The notes under the pieces are model-generated. The model worked only from the letters and a program-made list of their open reading frames with translations, did no database searches and was not told the DNA's origin. Below, piece by piece: positions 5,317-11,168 of a stretch of 64,000 bases of DNA (the first letter of the stretch is position 1; the number at the start of each line of letters is the position of its first letter). This DNA comes from Pelagibacteraceae bacterium AG-390-L03 (GTDB taxonomy: Bacteria; Pseudomonadota; Alphaproteobacteria; Pelagibacterales; Pelagibacteraceae). The DNA lies in contig QCHA01000002.1 of the NCBI GenBank assembly GCA_003279685.1, positions 80,303 through 144,302 on the forward strand, in the 5' to 3' direction. A program made the translations under genes and the position numbers.

Positions 5317-5613
5317 ATGAAAAAAAAAGGTCACACCCCTATCACGAGAGTTAAAAATCCTGAACCAGAGGTTAATGACCCAGATTGGGTTATTTGGGCT
5401 GCCTGGGCAGATAGGATTACCTTTGAAGAGATAGAAAAAAAAACAGGTAAAACAGAATCTGAAGTAATTAAGATTATGAGAAGATCTGTAAAACCTTCTT
5501 CATTTAGATTATGGAGAAAAAGAGTTAATCAAAAAAGTATAAAACATAGAAAAAAATTTGAATATTCTAGAAAAGAAATAACTAGTAAATTGAAAAAGAA
5601 TGATTATTTATAA
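5317..5613 (+). CDS. DUF2805 / TIGR03643 family protein
   Basis: A 98-residue basic protein. The block DPDWVIWAAWADRITFEEIEKKTG followed by SEVIKIMRRSVKPSSFRLWRKRV is the hallmark of the DUF2805 family, which reads like a small helix-turn-helix fold. Function is not established for the family. The last 25 residues are very lysine-rich. It lies 3 bp ahead of the glutaredoxin gene, so the two are probably cotranscribed. The gene is real: family conservation is strong and it sits in a compact operon. Confidence 0.8.
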   Translation: MKKKGHTPITRVKNPEPEVNDPDWVIWAAWADRITFEEIEKKTGKTESEVIKIMRRSVKPSSFRLWRKRVNQKSIKHRKKFEYSRKEITSKLKKNDYL

Positions 5614-5616
5614 TAT

Positions 5617-5871
5617 ATGAAATCGGTAACAATTTATACAGGTCCTCTTTGCAATTATTGTGATGCAGCAAAAAGATTACTAGCTAGAAATAATATTGAA
5701 TATAAAGAAATTAATATTGCTACAGTTGATGGTGCAATGGATGAAATGATTAAAAAAGCTAATGGTAAAAGAACCATTCCTCAAATTTTTTTTGATGATA
5801 AACACATTGGTGGTTACGATGAAACACGAGAGCTTGAAAAGTCTGATAAGTTAAAAGACCTTCTTAAATAA
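5617..5871 (+). CDS. grxC: Glutaredoxin 3
   Basis: An 84-residue thioredoxin-fold protein with the redox motif CNYC (residues 12-15; classical glutaredoxins have CPYC), the cis-proline motif TIPQIFFDD, and the glutathione-binding GGYDE near residue 66. It reduces protein disulfides and glutathione mixed disulfides in the cytoplasm. It is the second gene behind the DUF2805 gene. The CNYC variant, with Asn in place of Pro, may shift redox potential; this is inference. Confidence 0.9.
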   Translation: MKSVTIYTGPLCNYCDAAKRLLARNNIEYKEINIATVDGAMDEMIKKANGKRTIPQIFFDDKHIGGYDETRELEKSDKLKDLLK

Positions 5872-5891
5872 AAAAATATTAATTAAATACC

Positions 5892-6758
5892 TTAATTTGC
5901 AGTCATTATTGCCTGGAAAGGTCCACTACCAATAAATAATTTGTTACTACCACCATTAACAAGGTGCATTCCCTCACCTACATTAAATTTCATACTTAAA
6001 GAGGTAGTGTCTGCAGTAACAACTACTGGATTTGCAAATGACACTAAACCCTCAAGTTTATCAACCTCACCTGTAGTTGAAGCTCTATGACCATTAGTGT
6101 CAACTAAATATCCATTAATTGCTGCTGTAGTTCCATTAATATTTTCAACTTCAGCTTTTGATTTAAAATCTTCTTCTGCTCCATCGAATGTTGCTAGAGT
6201 TTCAACAAATTTTCCTGCAGTTATTGCACTTGAACCACAAACAGAACTATTGGTATGAGTGCTGCCTTTTGCATGTGTTCCTGAACCAGCTACAGTTCCA
6301 CAAAAAACTCCTGTGCCACCTGTCATTCCAGTCATTGATGCAGCAAGCTCTCCTGACCAAGTTAAACCAAAAGTATTATCCATAAAAGCATATCCATGAG
6401 TATAAGTTCCGGTTGGAGGTCTTGTATAAGTTCCATCTAAAACTATATCTGCTCCTTGGGTTACAGACGCAGTTGCTCCACTTGAACTGTTAAAAACTTG
6501 TGAACATGGAGTTAAAACAACTGCCGAAGATGTGGTAGCTTCTGTTGGAGAACTTGTACACAAATATAACTTATAAATTACTACTTCATAAAGAGCTGGA
6601 GTTTCATCACATCCGTCATCAATAAAATCAGCACCATCACCACTTTCCTTTGCCACAACTCCATCAGTAACTGTGCATGCCTCTGCTTGTTTGGAATTTA
6701 CCATCTCAAAAACAAAGATTATAGATAAAATTAGAAATAAATATTTAGCATATTTCAT
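5892..6758 (-). CDS. Unrecognised secreted protein coupled to an inverse-autotransporter barrel
   Basis: I do not recognise this 288-residue protein. It has a clear signal peptide (MKYAKYLFLILSIIFVFEMVNS, cut near QAEA-C), then a Thr/Ser/Gly/Ala-rich, lysine-poor mature chain with several cysteines that could form disulfides, a YEVVIYKLYLC segment near residue 60, and a C-terminal GEGMHLVNGGSN. No transmembrane helix follows the signal peptide. The ATG directly follows the barrel gene's stop (TAAATG), and a strong Shine-Dalgarno AGGAGG lies at the right distance inside the end of the barrel gene. That argues for coordinated, high expression. An exported surface or passenger-like protein is plausible but inferred. 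Confidence 0.75.
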   Translation of the reverse strand: MKYAKYLFLILSIIFVFEMVNSKQAEACTVTDGVVAKESGDGADFIDDGCDETPALYEVVIYKLYLCTSSPTEATTSSAVVLTPCSQVFNSSSGATASVTQGADIVLDGTYTRPPTGTYTHGYAFMDNTFGLTWSGELAASMTGMTGGTGVFCGTVAGSGTHAKGSTHTNSSVCGSSAITAGKFVETLATFDGAEEDFKSKAEVENINGTTAAINGYLVDTNGHRASTTGEVDKLEGLVSFANPVVVTADTTSLSMKFNVGEGMHLVNGGSNKLFIGSGPFQAIMTAN

Positions 6759-7607
6759 TTAAAATCCTCCTGCTTTAACAGAGAAATCCTTTGATTTAAT
6801 AATTAGATTTTCTCTTCTCACTTTTTCGTATTTTTTATCTTTCATTGAAACTCTTTCAAAAGCTTCGTCACTTACTAAACTTATATTAGGGTTAATTTTA
6901 GTTAAATTAAATGTTAAGTTTAAAAACCATTGGTCTTCATAACTATTATTACCATAGTCTTTAAAACCAACTTCAACATTCATTCCAGAATTTGGAATAC
7001 CAATTTTCGATGAATATTCTATTCCTTCAAAGTCTGATCCACCTGGAATTTCATATTCAAATAATTTAGTATAAATCTTTGCAGTTGGCATATAAGGAAT
7101 GTGAGCTCCAACTTCTAAATCATACCCATCTGCAACCTCTTCTTTAATACTATTTTTTCCAGTTACTTGGTTAGATATAGCAAAATAGTGATTGGTATTT
7201 AATTCTAAGATAGAAGATTTAATTTCAGCTCCAATACTTGCTCTTTGGTGATCGTAATCTAACTCATGATCATAAAATGCATTTAACCCAAACAAAAAAC
7301 TTTCATCATCACTCAGCATTCTTTTTCCAAAACCTAAGTTTAAAGTTTCTCTATCTCCATCATGGGTAAATAATGACCCTTGAAAAAAAGTTAAACTATC
7401 ATCGCTATCGTTTAATGGTTTAAACGTTAAAATTCCTATTTCTGGTTTATTGCCTTCCTTAGACTTAATGGAAAAATCAGTATCTTTAAAATTACTATCA
7501 AGTAAACTTTCTATTGAACTAAAAAAATTATCTTTTAATTTAGAAGTATCAGCACTTGAAGTTGAAAATACTAAAGCAGTAAACAAAATTATAAAATATC
7601 TTTTCAC
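6759..7607 (-). CDS. Stand-alone inverse-autotransporter (intimin/invasin-type) beta-barrel protein
   Basis: A 282-residue outer-membrane protein starting at a GTG codon, with a signal peptide (cut near FSTSSA-DT). The central part carries inverse-autotransporter beta-domain signatures: GDRETLNLGFGKR, then FGLNAFYDHELDYDHQRASIGAE, then EEVADGYDLEVGAHIPYMP. The chain ends soon after the barrel in an arginine-rich linker (KVRRENLIIKSKDFSVK), where intimins and invasins would continue into Ig-like passenger domains. None is present. It is directly followed by, and coupled to, the secreted 288-residue gene. Family call is firm; whether it exports anything is open. Confidence 0.8.
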   Translation of the reverse strand: MKRYFIILFTALVFSTSSADTSKLKDNFFSSIESLLDSNFKDTDFSIKSKEGNKPEIGILTFKPLNDSDDSLTFFQGSLFTHDGDRETLNLGFGKRMLSDDESFLFGLNAFYDHELDYDHQRASIGAEIKSSILELNTNHYFAISNQVTGKNSIKEEVADGYDLEVGAHIPYMPTAKIYTKLFEYEIPGGSDFEGIEYSSKIGIPNSGMNVEVGFKDYGNNSYEDQWFLNLTFNLTKINPNISLVSDEAFERVSMKDKKYEKVRRENLIIKSKDFSVKAGGF

Positions 7608-7699
7608 AACTAAACTCTTAATTAAATATAAAACCTATCAAATATTAGATTATTTTAAATCAATAAAATTAATTAGAAAAACTTGTATTTTAGTAATAA

Positions 7700-8938
7700 T
7701 TAATCAATATTATCTAGGGATAGTTGTTTTTTTGCTATAGAATTTAAATTCTCTAATTTCATTCTACCTTTATAATTAATTTCATAATCTTCTGGCGCAA
7801 AATCAGGTGGGCTCTTACCTTCTAAAAATTTTTTTGATTGTTTTAAAGTATAATCAAGATTTTTTTTACAGTATGGAGTTGCACCAACGTAAACAACATT
7901 AGAATATTTTTTTCCTAAATGTTTATCCTCAACAGCATGAACGATATCTGGATGCCACCAAATTGTATCTCCTGGTTTCATTTTTGGAATTGAAACTAAA
8001 CCTTTTAAAAGTAATTCATGATAATCTTTGTTTACTGACAAAGCTTTGCCAAGTTTTGAACCACATAATTCATTTTTAGGAACATCATCAAGTAAAGCCC
8101 TAGTTAAAATATAAGCCATCCCTTTTGCAATCGGAATTAACTGTAAGGTGCCATCATTAGGACCTTGTTCAGTTAAAGCAGTCCAACCTTGAAAAGTTCT
8201 AAAGACATGCGCAACTGCGGGAGACTCAAATTCAATTACTTTATCCCTATACTTTGCATCAAAAGGATCATAATTTCTAAAGTTATCTGAAAAGATATCT
8301 TTATAAATTTTTTGATAAGAACTATCTGTCCATCTTTCAACTGATCCTGCATCACAATGGGGAGATAAGCCTAATGTATCATCACCTGGCTCTCTTCTTC
8401 TTACTCTGTCAGCATAAGATAATTCTCTATTAGGATCAAAAACCTTATATTCATCATTTTCATATACCCAAAGATTATTAAGCCATTTTTTAACTTTTGC
8501 CATTTGCTCAGAATGTCTAATTTCTATTTGTGTTTTAGACCAATACAATCCAAAAATCTGAGGTTTTCCAGATTTAAGGTCGCTGAAGTATTTATCTAAA
8601 TCAGATTTCTTCTTTTGATCAGTGTAATAATCATTGATATTTATATAATCTTCTAATTCTTTATTTAGAATATTTATTATTTGAGCATTAAATACATTCC
8701 TAACAATTACACATCCTCTATGTTTTATTTTTTTAATTAATTCTTCATTATTACCCTCAATACTATCAAAATTTATTTCAGGAATTATTGGTTGGTTTAA
8801 ATCTTTAGATCTTTTAATTTTTGCAATTTCAATATCTATATAGCTTTTGATATTATTAAAATTCTGAATGTAGTCTTTTGATTTTTTTCTTAATATCTTT
8901 TTGGCAAACTTAATTTGATTATCGATATCATCAAACAT
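7700..8938 (-). CDS. DUF1479 (YbiU-like) putative Fe(II)/2-oxoglutarate-type oxygenase
   Basis: A 412-residue protein of the DUF1479 family. A likely iron-binding facial triad is visible: HCD in LGLSPHCDAGSVERW (near residue 194) and a distal histidine in TIWWHPDIVHAVED (near 335). Other family blocks are RRREPGDD and FRTFQGWTALTEQGPNDGTLQLIP. Members are thought to be dioxygenases with unknown substrates, in E. coli YbiU. It is the last gene of the six-gene operon starting with the DadA-like gene, 5 bp behind msrB. The N-terminal 60 residues are lysine-rich and variable. Confidence 0.8.
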   Translation of the reverse strand: MFDDIDNQIKFAKKILRKKSKDYIQNFNNIKSYIDIEIAKIKRSKDLNQPIIPEINFDSIEGNNEELIKKIKHRGCVIVRNVFNAQIINILNKELEDYININDYYTDQKKKSDLDKYFSDLKSGKPQIFGLYWSKTQIEIRHSEQMAKVKKWLNNLWVYENDEYKVFDPNRELSYADRVRRREPGDDTLGLSPHCDAGSVERWTDSSYQKIYKDIFSDNFRNYDPFDAKYRDKVIEFESPAVAHVFRTFQGWTALTEQGPNDGTLQLIPIAKGMAYILTRALLDDVPKNELCGSKLGKALSVNKDYHELLLKGLVSIPKMKPGDTIWWHPDIVHAVEDKHLGKKYSNVVYVGATPYCKKNLDYTLKQSKKFLEGKSPPDFAPEDYEINYKGRMKLENLNSIAKKQLSLDNID

Positions 8939-8943
8939 TTTTA

Positions 8944-9318
8944 CTAGCTTTTAGGTTTAAAAACCAAACACACTCCATTATTACAATATCTTTTACCAGT
9001 TGGGTTTGGTCCATCTTCAAATATATGTCCGTGATGTCCACCACATTTTTTACAATGATATTCTGTTCTTGCATAACCTAGATGATGATCAGTTTTAGTT
9101 TCAAATACATCGGGAAGAGATTGATAAAAAGATGGCCAACCTGAACCACTTTCATATTTAGTATTTGAGTCAAATAATTCTTCTCCACAATTAGCACAAT
9201 GAAAACTTCCTTCTCTTTTTTCATGATTTAACTCACTTGTGCCTGCCATTTCTGTGCCCTCTTCAAACAAAACTGATTTTTGTTCTTCAGTTAGATTGGG
9301 ATTAATTTTTTTAGTCAT
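8944..9318 (-). CDS. msrB: Peptide-methionine (R)-S-oxide reductase
   Basis: A 124-residue MsrB. Two CxxC zinc motifs are visible (CANC and CKKC), along with GSGWPSFYQ and [11 protein letters not shown], and the catalytic cysteine in [11 protein letters not shown] near the C-terminus. A normal MsrB has RYCINSVALSF; here the residues around it are NNGVC, so a second cysteine lies four residues after the catalytic one and could act as the resolving cysteine. It repairs oxidised methionine in the cytoplasm. It sits 3 bp after the deacetylase gene and 5 bp before DUF1479, in one operon. Confidence 0.93.
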
Positions 9319-9321
9319 AAT

Positions 9322-10215
9322 TTAAAATAATCTAGCACAAGACTGATGCAATAAAGAATGTAATTCTACCAATTTATTAAAATCTTTATTATATCCTCCA
9401 CCTAAAACACCACAGATAGGTATTTTTTTTGAAGAAAAATTTTCAATTACTAATTCATCTCTTTGTTTTACTCCTTCATCTGAAATTTTTAACTTACCTA
9501 ATAGATCGTTAAAATGAATATCAACACCCGCTATATAAAAAACAAAGTCAAAGTTTTCATTATTGAGTGTATTTATATAAAATTTAAGTGTCTTTAGATA
9601 AGCATCATCTTCAATGTTATCTTCAAGCTCCACATCTAAATCACTAATTGATTTTTTCGCAGGATAATTAGTTTTTGAATGCATACTAAAAGTAAATACA
9701 CGTCTATTATCTTTAAAAATTTCTGAGTTTCCATTTCCCTGATGAACATCTAAATCTATAATTAAAATTCTATTGGCAAATCCTCTATCTAATAAATAGT
9801 GAGCAGCTACAGCTACATCATTAAAAACACAATAGCCAGCACCACCATCATAATTAGCATGATGACTTCCTCCAGCAGTGTTACACGCAACTCCATAATT
9901 TAATGCAAGTTTTGATGCTAAAACAGTACCGCCAGTTGCAACTAATGATCTTTGAACCACACTATCAACTAATGGAAAGCCAATTTTTTTAATTCCATTT
10001 TTGTCTAAAGTCTTATTCTTTATATTATCTATATAATTTGCTGAATGAGCTCTATTTAAAGTTTCAAAAGAACAGGCAGTAGGATTATAAAAATTTTTTA
10101 CAACCTTTTGATTAAGTAGATACTTGGCAAGTTCGCCAAATTTATTTATTGGAAATTTGTGATCATCTCCAATTTTTGCAACATAATCTTTATGATTTAC
10201 TACTGGTAGCTCCAT
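9322..10215 (-). CDS. Histone-deacetylase-like amidohydrolase
   Basis: A 297-residue protein of the HDAC/acetoin-utilisation/acetylpolyamine amidohydrolase superfamily. Zinc-dependent active-site blocks are present: GGSHHANYDGGAGYCVFND (catalytic histidine pair), IIDLDVHQGNG (zinc ligands Asp and His) and AGVDIHFNDLLG (third Asp). It is shorter than eukaryotic HDACs, as usual for bacterial class IV-like members. It probably removes acyl groups from a small amine or a protein lysine; the substrate is unknown. Its ATG overlaps the stop of the upstream dehydrogenase by one base (TAATG). Confidence 0.82.
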   Translation of the reverse strand: MELPVVNHKDYVAKIGDDHKFPINKFGELAKYLLNQKVVKNFYNPTACSFETLNRAHSANYIDNIKNKTLDKNGIKKIGFPLVDSVVQRSLVATGGTVLASKLALNYGVACNTAGGSHHANYDGGAGYCVFNDVAVAAHYLLDRGFANRILIIDLDVHQGNGNSEIFKDNRRVFTFSMHSKTNYPAKKSISDLDVELEDNIEDDAYLKTLKFYINTLNNENFDFVFYIAGVDIHFNDLLGKLKISDEGVKQRDELVIENFSSKKIPICGVLGGGYNKDFNKLVELHSLLHQSCARLF

Positions 10216-11168
10216 TACTTTTCAATAACACGAATGGGCTTTCCGTTTACACAAGCCTCAAGATCTTCAATCATCTGTGTATAAAATATACTATAATTTT
10301 CTACTGTTACATATCCAATGTGAGGAGTAAGTAACGCATTAGGTAAAAATCTTAATTTATTTCCTTCAGGCAGAGGTTCTTTGTCATAAACATCAATTCC
10401 TGCACCCATAATAACATTAGTTGATAATGCAATTATTAAATCATCCTCGTTAACGATAGGGCCTCTAGAGGTATTAATTAAAAAAGCTGTCTTCTTCATT
10501 TGATCAAATTCTTTTATAGTAATGCAATCATTATAACGTTCGCCACCTTGAACATGAATTGAAATATAATCTGATGTTTTAATTAAATCTTCTTTACTAC
10601 ATGGAAGGACATTTAATTCTTTGCATTTGTTTAGATCTAGGTTTTCACTCCAAGCCATAACTTGCATACCAAAAGCATTAGCTATTTTTGCCACTTGCGA
10701 ACCTACTCTTCCAAGGCCAATTAAACCAATTATTTTACCTTTTAATTCAAAGCCAACAGTTGTTTGCCAATAACCTTGGTACATATTATCAATTTCAGTC
10801 TTTAAATTTTTTGATAGACCTAGAATTAAAGCCCAAGTTAATTCACAAGTTGGATTAAAATTAATCTCAGTACCACTAACTATAATTTTTCTTTTTTTTG
10901 CAGCCTCTAAATCAATTGCTTTATTTCTTGAGCCACTTGTGATGATATATTTAAGATTATTAAGATTATCGATTAAATTTTTTGTAATTGGTGTTCGCTC
11001 TCGCATGATTAATAATGCTTCAAAATCTGATAATTGCTCGATAGCATCAGCTTCATCCTGAAAGGGTTCACTAAATATTTTAAATTCATATTTTCCAGAT
11101 AATTTTCTTAAATCTACAAATTCTTGTGAAACATCTTGATAATCGTCTAGTATTGCAACTTTAAGCAT
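10215..11168 (-). CDS. D-2-hydroxyacid dehydrogenase family protein
   Basis: A 317-residue NAD-dependent 2-hydroxyacid dehydrogenase (SerA/LdhA/glyoxylate reductase superfamily). The Rossmann motif GLIGLGRVGSQVAKIANAFG lies near residues 145-164, the signature INTSRGPIVNEDDL near 230, and the catalytic His in LTPHIGYVT near 285. It interconverts a D-2-hydroxy acid and a 2-oxo acid; the precise acid cannot be told. It overlaps the EamA gene by 8 bp upstream and the HDAC-like gene by 1 bp downstream. An upstream gene that oxidises D-amino acids to 2-oxo acids would make a compatible metabolic partner. Confidence 0.85.
   Translation of the reverse strand: MLKVAILDDYQDVSQEFVDLRKLSGKYEFKIFSEPFQDEADAIEQLSDFEALLIMRERTPITKNLIDNLNNLKYIITSGSRNKAIDLEAAKKRKIIVSGTEINFNPTCELTWALILGLSKNLKTEIDNMYQGYWQTTVGFELKGKIIGLIGLGRVGSQVAKIANAFGMQVMAWSENLDLNKCKELNVLPCSKEDLIKTSDYISIHVQGGERYNDCITIKEFDQMKKTAFLINTSRGPIVNEDDLIIALSTNVIMGAGIDVYDKEPLPEGNKLRFLPNALLTPHIGYVTVENYSIFYTQMIEDLEACVNGKPIRVIEK

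Follow-up and report, generated by a model that had tools for sequence, protein, structure and literature searches.

A candidate split inverse autotransporter in SAR11 bacteria: a stand-alone barrel paired with a separate, predicted secreted protein

In a 64,000-nucleotide stretch of the genome of Pelagibacteraceae bacterium AG-390-L03 (contig QCHA01000002.1; hereafter, the window), we found a stand-alone inverse-autotransporter barrel gene followed directly by a gene for a separate, predicted secreted protein, and about a third of the sampled Pelagibacterales genomes carry this barrel-partner module. We consider it very probable that the two genes function as a unit. To the reading that they encode a two-polypeptide inverse autotransporter, in which the barrel would export and/or anchor the partner at the cell surface, probably via a conserved C-terminal tail, we give a probability of roughly 0.5. 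The initial annotation of this DNA had proposed such a split or two-partner system, and the pairing in that proposal held up: because of co-occurrence, one-to-one adjacency, recurrence in distant alphaproteobacteria, and cassette behavior, the split paired architecture is strongly supported, whereas a confident complex of the two proteins did not emerge.

SAR11 bacteria are among the most abundant cell groups on Earth, and little is known of the surface that they turn toward phages, grazers, and other cells. Among the open-licence papers searched, none dealt with SAR11 inverse autotransporters. In the literature, this class of proteins is described as nearly confined to Gammaproteobacteria (PMC6714894).

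Results

The barrel gene lies at positions 6759..7607 of the window on the minus strand, starts with GTG, and encodes 282 amino acids, including a signal peptide whose cleavage we placed by eye at about A19/D20. Confirming the intimin/invasin beta-domain signature that the initial annotation had read in this gene, PF11924 (IAT_beta) matched over profile positions 29-279 of 279 with E=1.2e-36 and 127.2 bits (cut-off, 22.3 bits) and was the sole Pfam domain of the protein. An AF2 model contained 12 strands over model residues 23-215, with pLDDT of this block mostly 80-90; as model residue + 19 gives the protein residue, the predicted 12-stranded beta-domain spans residues 42-234 (6906..7484, minus strand). 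This barrel was taken from a read-through fusion in which the TAA was read as Gly, modeled with an alignment of 59 rows drawn from the window and fetched-locus sequences. A barrel model lacking a 12-strand pore had been named as an argument against a paired system; the model has the 12 strands, and the top PDB folds returned by Foldseek were invasin (4e1t) and intimin (5g26 and 4e1s), with E from 6e-14 to 1e-12 and TM by target of 0.77-0.80. By its PF11924 match and predicted 12-stranded beta-domain, the window barrel belongs to the inverse autotransporters (type Ve). A genome search found a single barrel copy in the source genome, and named relatives are from Pelagibacteraceae/SAR11.

The barrel stops right past the pore, as had also been noted from the sequence. 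Pfam detected no fused C-terminal extracellular (Ig-like) passenger in the window barrel, which ends in DFSVKAGGF (ending, VRRENLIIKSKDFSVKAGGF) about eight residues beyond the pore-exit strand and 12 residues beyond a linker motif. This motif, V-[RK]-R-x-N-x-I at residues 263-270 (6798..6821, minus strand), was matched by eye, at the level of residues, to the pore-traversing linker described for intimin (PMC13078405), and V263, R265, and N267 are invariant in 30 divergent barrel homologues. The window barrel thus has a type Ve linker with the conserved Arg and Asn, and the AF2 model did not resolve its putative passage through the pore. The C-terminal tail that follows, KSKDFSVKAGGF (residues 271-282; 6762..6797, minus strand), is proposed from tail comparison to comprise an exit strand and a docking strand and is followed by the stop codon.

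The partner gene (5892..6758, minus strand) encodes 288 amino acids. Its ATG, at 6758, abuts the barrel TAA with zero gap (TTT TAA ATG) and the two genes share a frame in the window, so that the next gene does start directly after the barrel stop, as initially annotated. The strong ribosome-binding site reported within the barrel gene was likewise found: AGGAGG at 6771-6766 (6766..6771, minus strand) sits 7 nt before the partner ATG and forms codons for the A-G-G of the barrel's C-terminal A-G-G-F. The claim that the partner bears a signal peptide and is secreted agrees with our reading by eye of a hydrophobic N terminus and an AxA-type cleavage site, KQAEA before C, which gives a signal peptide of residues 1-27 (6678..6758, minus strand; MKYAKYLFLILSIIFVFEMVNSKQAEA before C). 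Cys67 (6558..6560) and Cys153 (6300..6302, both minus strand) are invariant in 30 divergent partners and may form a disulfide. A lipoprotein partner was considered and rejected, since Cys at +1 occurs in some partners only (AEA before C in the window) and is missing from most classes.

The libraries searched contain neither a family nor a fold that matches the partner superfamily. The window partner and its relatives had zero matches in Pfam, NCBIfam, and PHROG (weak PHROG noise only), and a PDB sequence-profile search with the partner came back empty. Modeled alone by AF2, the partner is predicted to be all-beta, with a mean pLDDT of 73.6, a pTM of 0.73, and a core above 90. Foldseek with this fold found nothing significant in the PDB, where the listed spike-protein matches had a meaningless TM of about 0.1, or among viral models in BFVD. 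We rejected a phage origin because of the BFVD result, the noise-level PHROG matches, and a scan of IMG/VR that yielded no relative.

We analyzed 65 Pelagibacterales barrels from two families, and all 65 are followed by a same-strand gene at -14 to +14 nt that encodes 230-380 amino acids with a hydrophobic N terminus. Identity among these downstream proteins drops below 20%. Iterated profiles from seven partner seeds each converged on exactly those 65 among 778 ORFs, and therefore the partners constitute one superfamily with two invariant cysteines. These 65 loci also bear on whether the window holds an ordinary inverse autotransporter split by a premature stop, as a pseudogene or through a sequencing error. 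The shared frame in the window, with only TAA between the genes, is what such a break would leave. However, the second gene carries a signal peptide and a ribosome site of its own, all frames are represented among the 65 gaps, the same split occurs in many independent assemblies, and a fused barrel-partner polypeptide was never seen. We therefore rejected a broken gene, whose probability we regard as negligible.

Co-occurrence was scored in 397 Pelagibacterales genomes. The barrel (PF11924) was present in 129 genomes and the partner in 131, with both in 126 and neither in 263 (126/3/5/263 for both, barrel only, partner only, and neither). The partner lies directly downstream of 147 of the 150 listed barrels: 138 had a listed partner there, and reading the DNA behind the other 12 revealed one in nine. 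Two of the three remaining barrels are at contig ends, and the third has an inverted partner on a 3.9-kb contig. On that contig (L149, 423-2459), the inverted partner stands beside a C-terminally cut barrel, probably an amplification or assembly chimera. The five partner-only genomes comprise two with the partner at a contig start (G047 and G061), two with 63-codon remnants (G130 and G203), and one weak hit (G335; E=2.6e-4). At L214 and L215, 63-codon partner remnants with no barrel nearby represent decayed cassettes. Separated homologues, which would have spoken against a pair according to the initial annotation, were thus limited to contig breaks, decayed remnants, one probable chimera, and one weak hit. 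Forty-four more named loci had the same pairing. Three second partners (G022:C7, G068:C9, and G337:C3) are included as listed. Chance adjacency was rejected on the basis of the 65/65 neighbors, the seed convergence on 65 of 778 ORFs, and the 126/3/5/263 co-occurrence.

The pair also occurs outside SAR11. PF11924 proteins in 399 sampled Pseudomonadota are mostly long single chains. In L178, from an unrelated alphaproteobacterium, a homologue of the partner (E=2.6e-12) comes after a stand-alone barrel. Searching 385 Alphaproteobacteria for the partner added nine more non-SAR11 genomes, and an order-level search added one further. All non-SAR11 alphaproteobacterial partners found are directly downstream of a barrel that exceeds the PF11924 curated cut-off; in one of these loci, L198, the reading frame of the barrel is fragmented. 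These pairs belong to several alphaproteobacterial families, with different loci and different GC contents, and their distribution is patchy even within orders. Other alphaproteobacterial inverse autotransporters (L179-L183 and L191) are long chains of the usual type and show no homology to the partner. The partner profile found no match at E<=10 beside the enterobacterial inverse-autotransporter genes sampled.

Comparison of loci shows that the pair behaves as an exchangeable cassette, whose site some relatives leave empty. Many Pelagibacter genomes carry it with glutaredoxin/DUF2805 genes on one side and msrB/histone-deacetylase-like/dehydrogenase genes on the other, a site that spans 5317-11168 in the window and that we observed in empty, single-pair, multi-pair, and 113-aa-gene states. 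By Pfam, one flank consists of the DUF2805 and glutaredoxin genes (5317..5871, plus strand), which all compared loci with the pair share with six pairless loci, and the other is msrB (SelR domain; 8944..9318, minus strand), which adjoins glutaredoxin in pairless loci. Glutaredoxin abuts msrB with the pair absent in L204, L205, L206, and L208, and a 113-aa gene replaces the pair in L203 and L207. The same site in other genomes holds partners of differing classes or two pairs. Inside the site in the window, just upstream of the pair, is a Gig2-like/PhyH-type dioxygenase gene (7700-8938, minus strand) that we saw at this position in none of the other loci compared.

Divergence is greater among partners than among barrels. 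Barrels 30-40% identical to each other have a median partner identity of 21%, partners of barrels 40-55% identical reach up to 91%, and those of barrels 55-65% identical range from 22 to 90%. As partner identity varies so widely at a given barrel identity, barrels and partners also recombine with each other. Judged from sequence identities, the clearest exchange is in L093/L098, where the barrel is 56-62% identical to L077/L089-type barrels and only about 33% to the window class, and the partner shares about 45-50% identity with the window class and 22-24% with the others. L200 may be a second exchange, with a barrel in the GF-tail lineage and a partner and tail of another type, on a long branch. 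Superclass labels on the barrel tree were set by a simple pattern; since these labels are partly wrong (L078 and L202 are mislabeled) and the non-SAR11 branches are long, we use the tree only in support of the L093/L098 exchange.

These patterns weigh on two further alternatives. That the two are unrelated envelope genes that share an operon and are co-transferred, with physical or functional contact absent, seems to us very unlikely. Tight operons with embedded ribosome sites are common in compact SAR11 genomes, and co-transfer at the cassette site would alone keep both genes together. Yet the adjacency persists across the alphaproteobacterial families, loci, and GC contents described above, one-gene losses are hardly seen even though barrels and partners recombine (L093/L098), and one barrel lineage occurs with a different class of partner and is never partnerless. 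We also consider it improbable that the partner is periplasmic, serving a barrel that works as a specific pore by plugging it, gating it, or assisting its assembly. A signal peptide alone gives no proof of surface exposure, two invariant cysteines suit a periplasmic disulfide, and a passenger-less barrel could be a porin, but an accessory factor is usually better conserved than its client, the reverse of what we observed, and several partner classes share one site. In addition, the pore is probably filled because the pore-traversing linker is invariant.

The reading of the pair as a two-polypeptide inverse autotransporter assigns a central role to the barrel tail. This tail extends 15-20 residues past the conserved N in 100 of 100 distinct pairs and ends in GF in 61. 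It looks like a short strand (FSVKAGGF, MDLTVIGF, GSVIITSQ, GSATISRTD, and GSVTISRGS). In intimin, the equivalent stretch forms the exit strand, and hairpin formation is prevented if this small extracellular sheet is abolished (PMC13078405). The tail of one relative, L217 (1230-3559), is strand-like as well (QITITIKGYAT) and stands at the end of a barrel protein with two Big_12 domains, followed by two tandem partner genes; since it comes after the two domains, the tail can also cap a classical passenger at its far end.

Part of the tail conservation is due to the Shine-Dalgarno sequence that overlaps the tail codons: GGA accounts for 90 of 111 Gly codons in the tail (81%) versus 806 of 1844 in the body (44%). 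Nevertheless, SGF tails are kept by synonymous codons in L194-L196, where the ribosome site follows the stop, and L077 and L088 have SGF tails with differing codons, again with the ribosome site after the stop. These codon differences suggest selection on the tail at the peptide level. In cases of conflict between the histories of barrel body and partner, the final five residues of the tail track the partner (cross-class triples, 659:0, non-independent and resting on one or two exchanges, of which L093/L098 is the clear one), and whole-tail triples are mixed, leaning to the barrel (782 barrel versus 628 partner). Because the last five to six residues were chosen after the data had been seen, the Shine-Dalgarno sequence overlaps the tail, and linkage is a confounder, we treat tail-partner covariation as a hint only; linkage alone could carry the tail along, as it lies beside the partner gene.

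Alternatively, the barrel could be a translocator dedicated to secreting the partner, which would end up in the medium with no anchoring, and the tail would be the leftover of a lost passenger; ZirS reaches the medium in a ZirT-dependent manner (PMC2270342). We think this unlikely. The gene order is that of ZirTS, with the barrel first and the cargo directly downstream, and one barrel before two partners (L163 and L217) resembles zirTSU, but a leftover tail would be expected to drift, and its length is constrained in every distinct pair and distant genomes preserve SGF as a peptide. A released monomer would, by an ecological argument, also gain little for a free-living cell in dilute seawater.

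We also modeled the barrel and partner together, as the initial annotation had suggested, and obtained no confident contact. The read-through fusion model had a good barrel and a pTM of 0.46, with pLDDT mostly about 30-55 in the tail and also low at the partner C terminus. This model may be hindered because the linker and signal peptide lie between the barrel and the partner.

Discussion

In the two-polypeptide inverse autotransporter that we favor, the barrel and partner would both exit the cytoplasm via Sec, the 12-stranded barrel would enter the outer membrane, and the linker would cross the pore as in intimin, so that the short C-terminal tail would emerge outside, where a fused Ig passenger normally starts. 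Inverse-autotransporter barrels export their C-terminal passenger as a hairpin through their own pore (PMC6555100), and ZirT was found experimentally to export ZirS, a separate protein, and to do so in E. coli K-12 as well (PMC2270342). The window barrel may help export its partner as ZirT does for ZirS, and the partner could then be kept at the surface through beta-strand pairing with the barrel tail. The barrel with its linker and tail would be a minimal anchor and the partner would replace the passenger as the variable outward-facing part, in a cassette swapped at a fixed site, as often happens with surface-antigen or receptor genes. We infer surface exposure, barrel-dependent export, tail docking, and a role in adhesion or in interactions with phages or grazers. 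More tentatively, Alphaproteobacteria may possess a split inverse autotransporter in which the short outer strand of a minimal barrel captures a separate, exchangeable secreted partner of new fold, a plug-in surface display swapped by SAR11 cells at a fixed site. If this mechanism is true, a type Ve barrel and its passenger can be uncoupled and the passenger exchanged, and the crossing of an inverse-autotransporter barrel by its cargo becomes testable with two separate proteins.

The architecture and families are related to known kinds. Like intimin, invasin, and YchO (type Ve), the window barrel has a PF11924 12-stranded barrel, a conserved linker, and a predicted topology with the N terminus in and the C terminus out; unlike in type Ve, what would be the passenger is encoded as a separate polypeptide, which carries a signal peptide and has no fold match. 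The pair shares with type Vb (TpsB/TpsA) an outer-membrane barrel and a secreted protein as two polypeptides of one operon. TpsB, in contrast, forms a barrel of 16 strands and carries two POTRA domains, and its partner TpsA contains a TPS domain (PMC6555100). We rejected a type Vb assignment since Pfam found no POTRA, Omp85, or TPS match in either protein.

The closest precedent is ZirT/ZirS of Salmonella. In the ZirT/ZirS(/ZirU) system of Salmonella enterica, an intimin/invasin-type barrel is likewise encoded directly upstream of a separate Sec-exported protein (PMC2270342, PMC6714894). Secretion by the barrel is experimental for ZirT/ZirS, whereas the SAR11 pair is known here from sequence and models. 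ZirT, at 660 amino acids, carries a C-terminal passenger of IgSF domains, unlike the window barrel, which ends just outside the pore; among the relatives we met such domains only in L217, with its two Big_12 domains. SinH/SinI of Salmonella and IatB/EcSMS35_2660 of E. coli also consist of an inverse-autotransporter gene followed by a gene for a barrel-less protein, but SinH and IatB carry their own Ig-like passengers, and in biofilm assays IatB does not need the downstream protein to function (PMC6714894). With these precedents, the suggestion of a new two-partner surface system stands for the paired, split architecture and not for a wholly new kind of system.

As in zirTSU, one barrel may serve two partners, and L163 (3704-6157) has one barrel followed by two partner genes. 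In L051 (5300-13269), 8 kb of a single genome contain three barrel-partner pairs that differ in class, with two genes of about 380 amino acids after the first pair.
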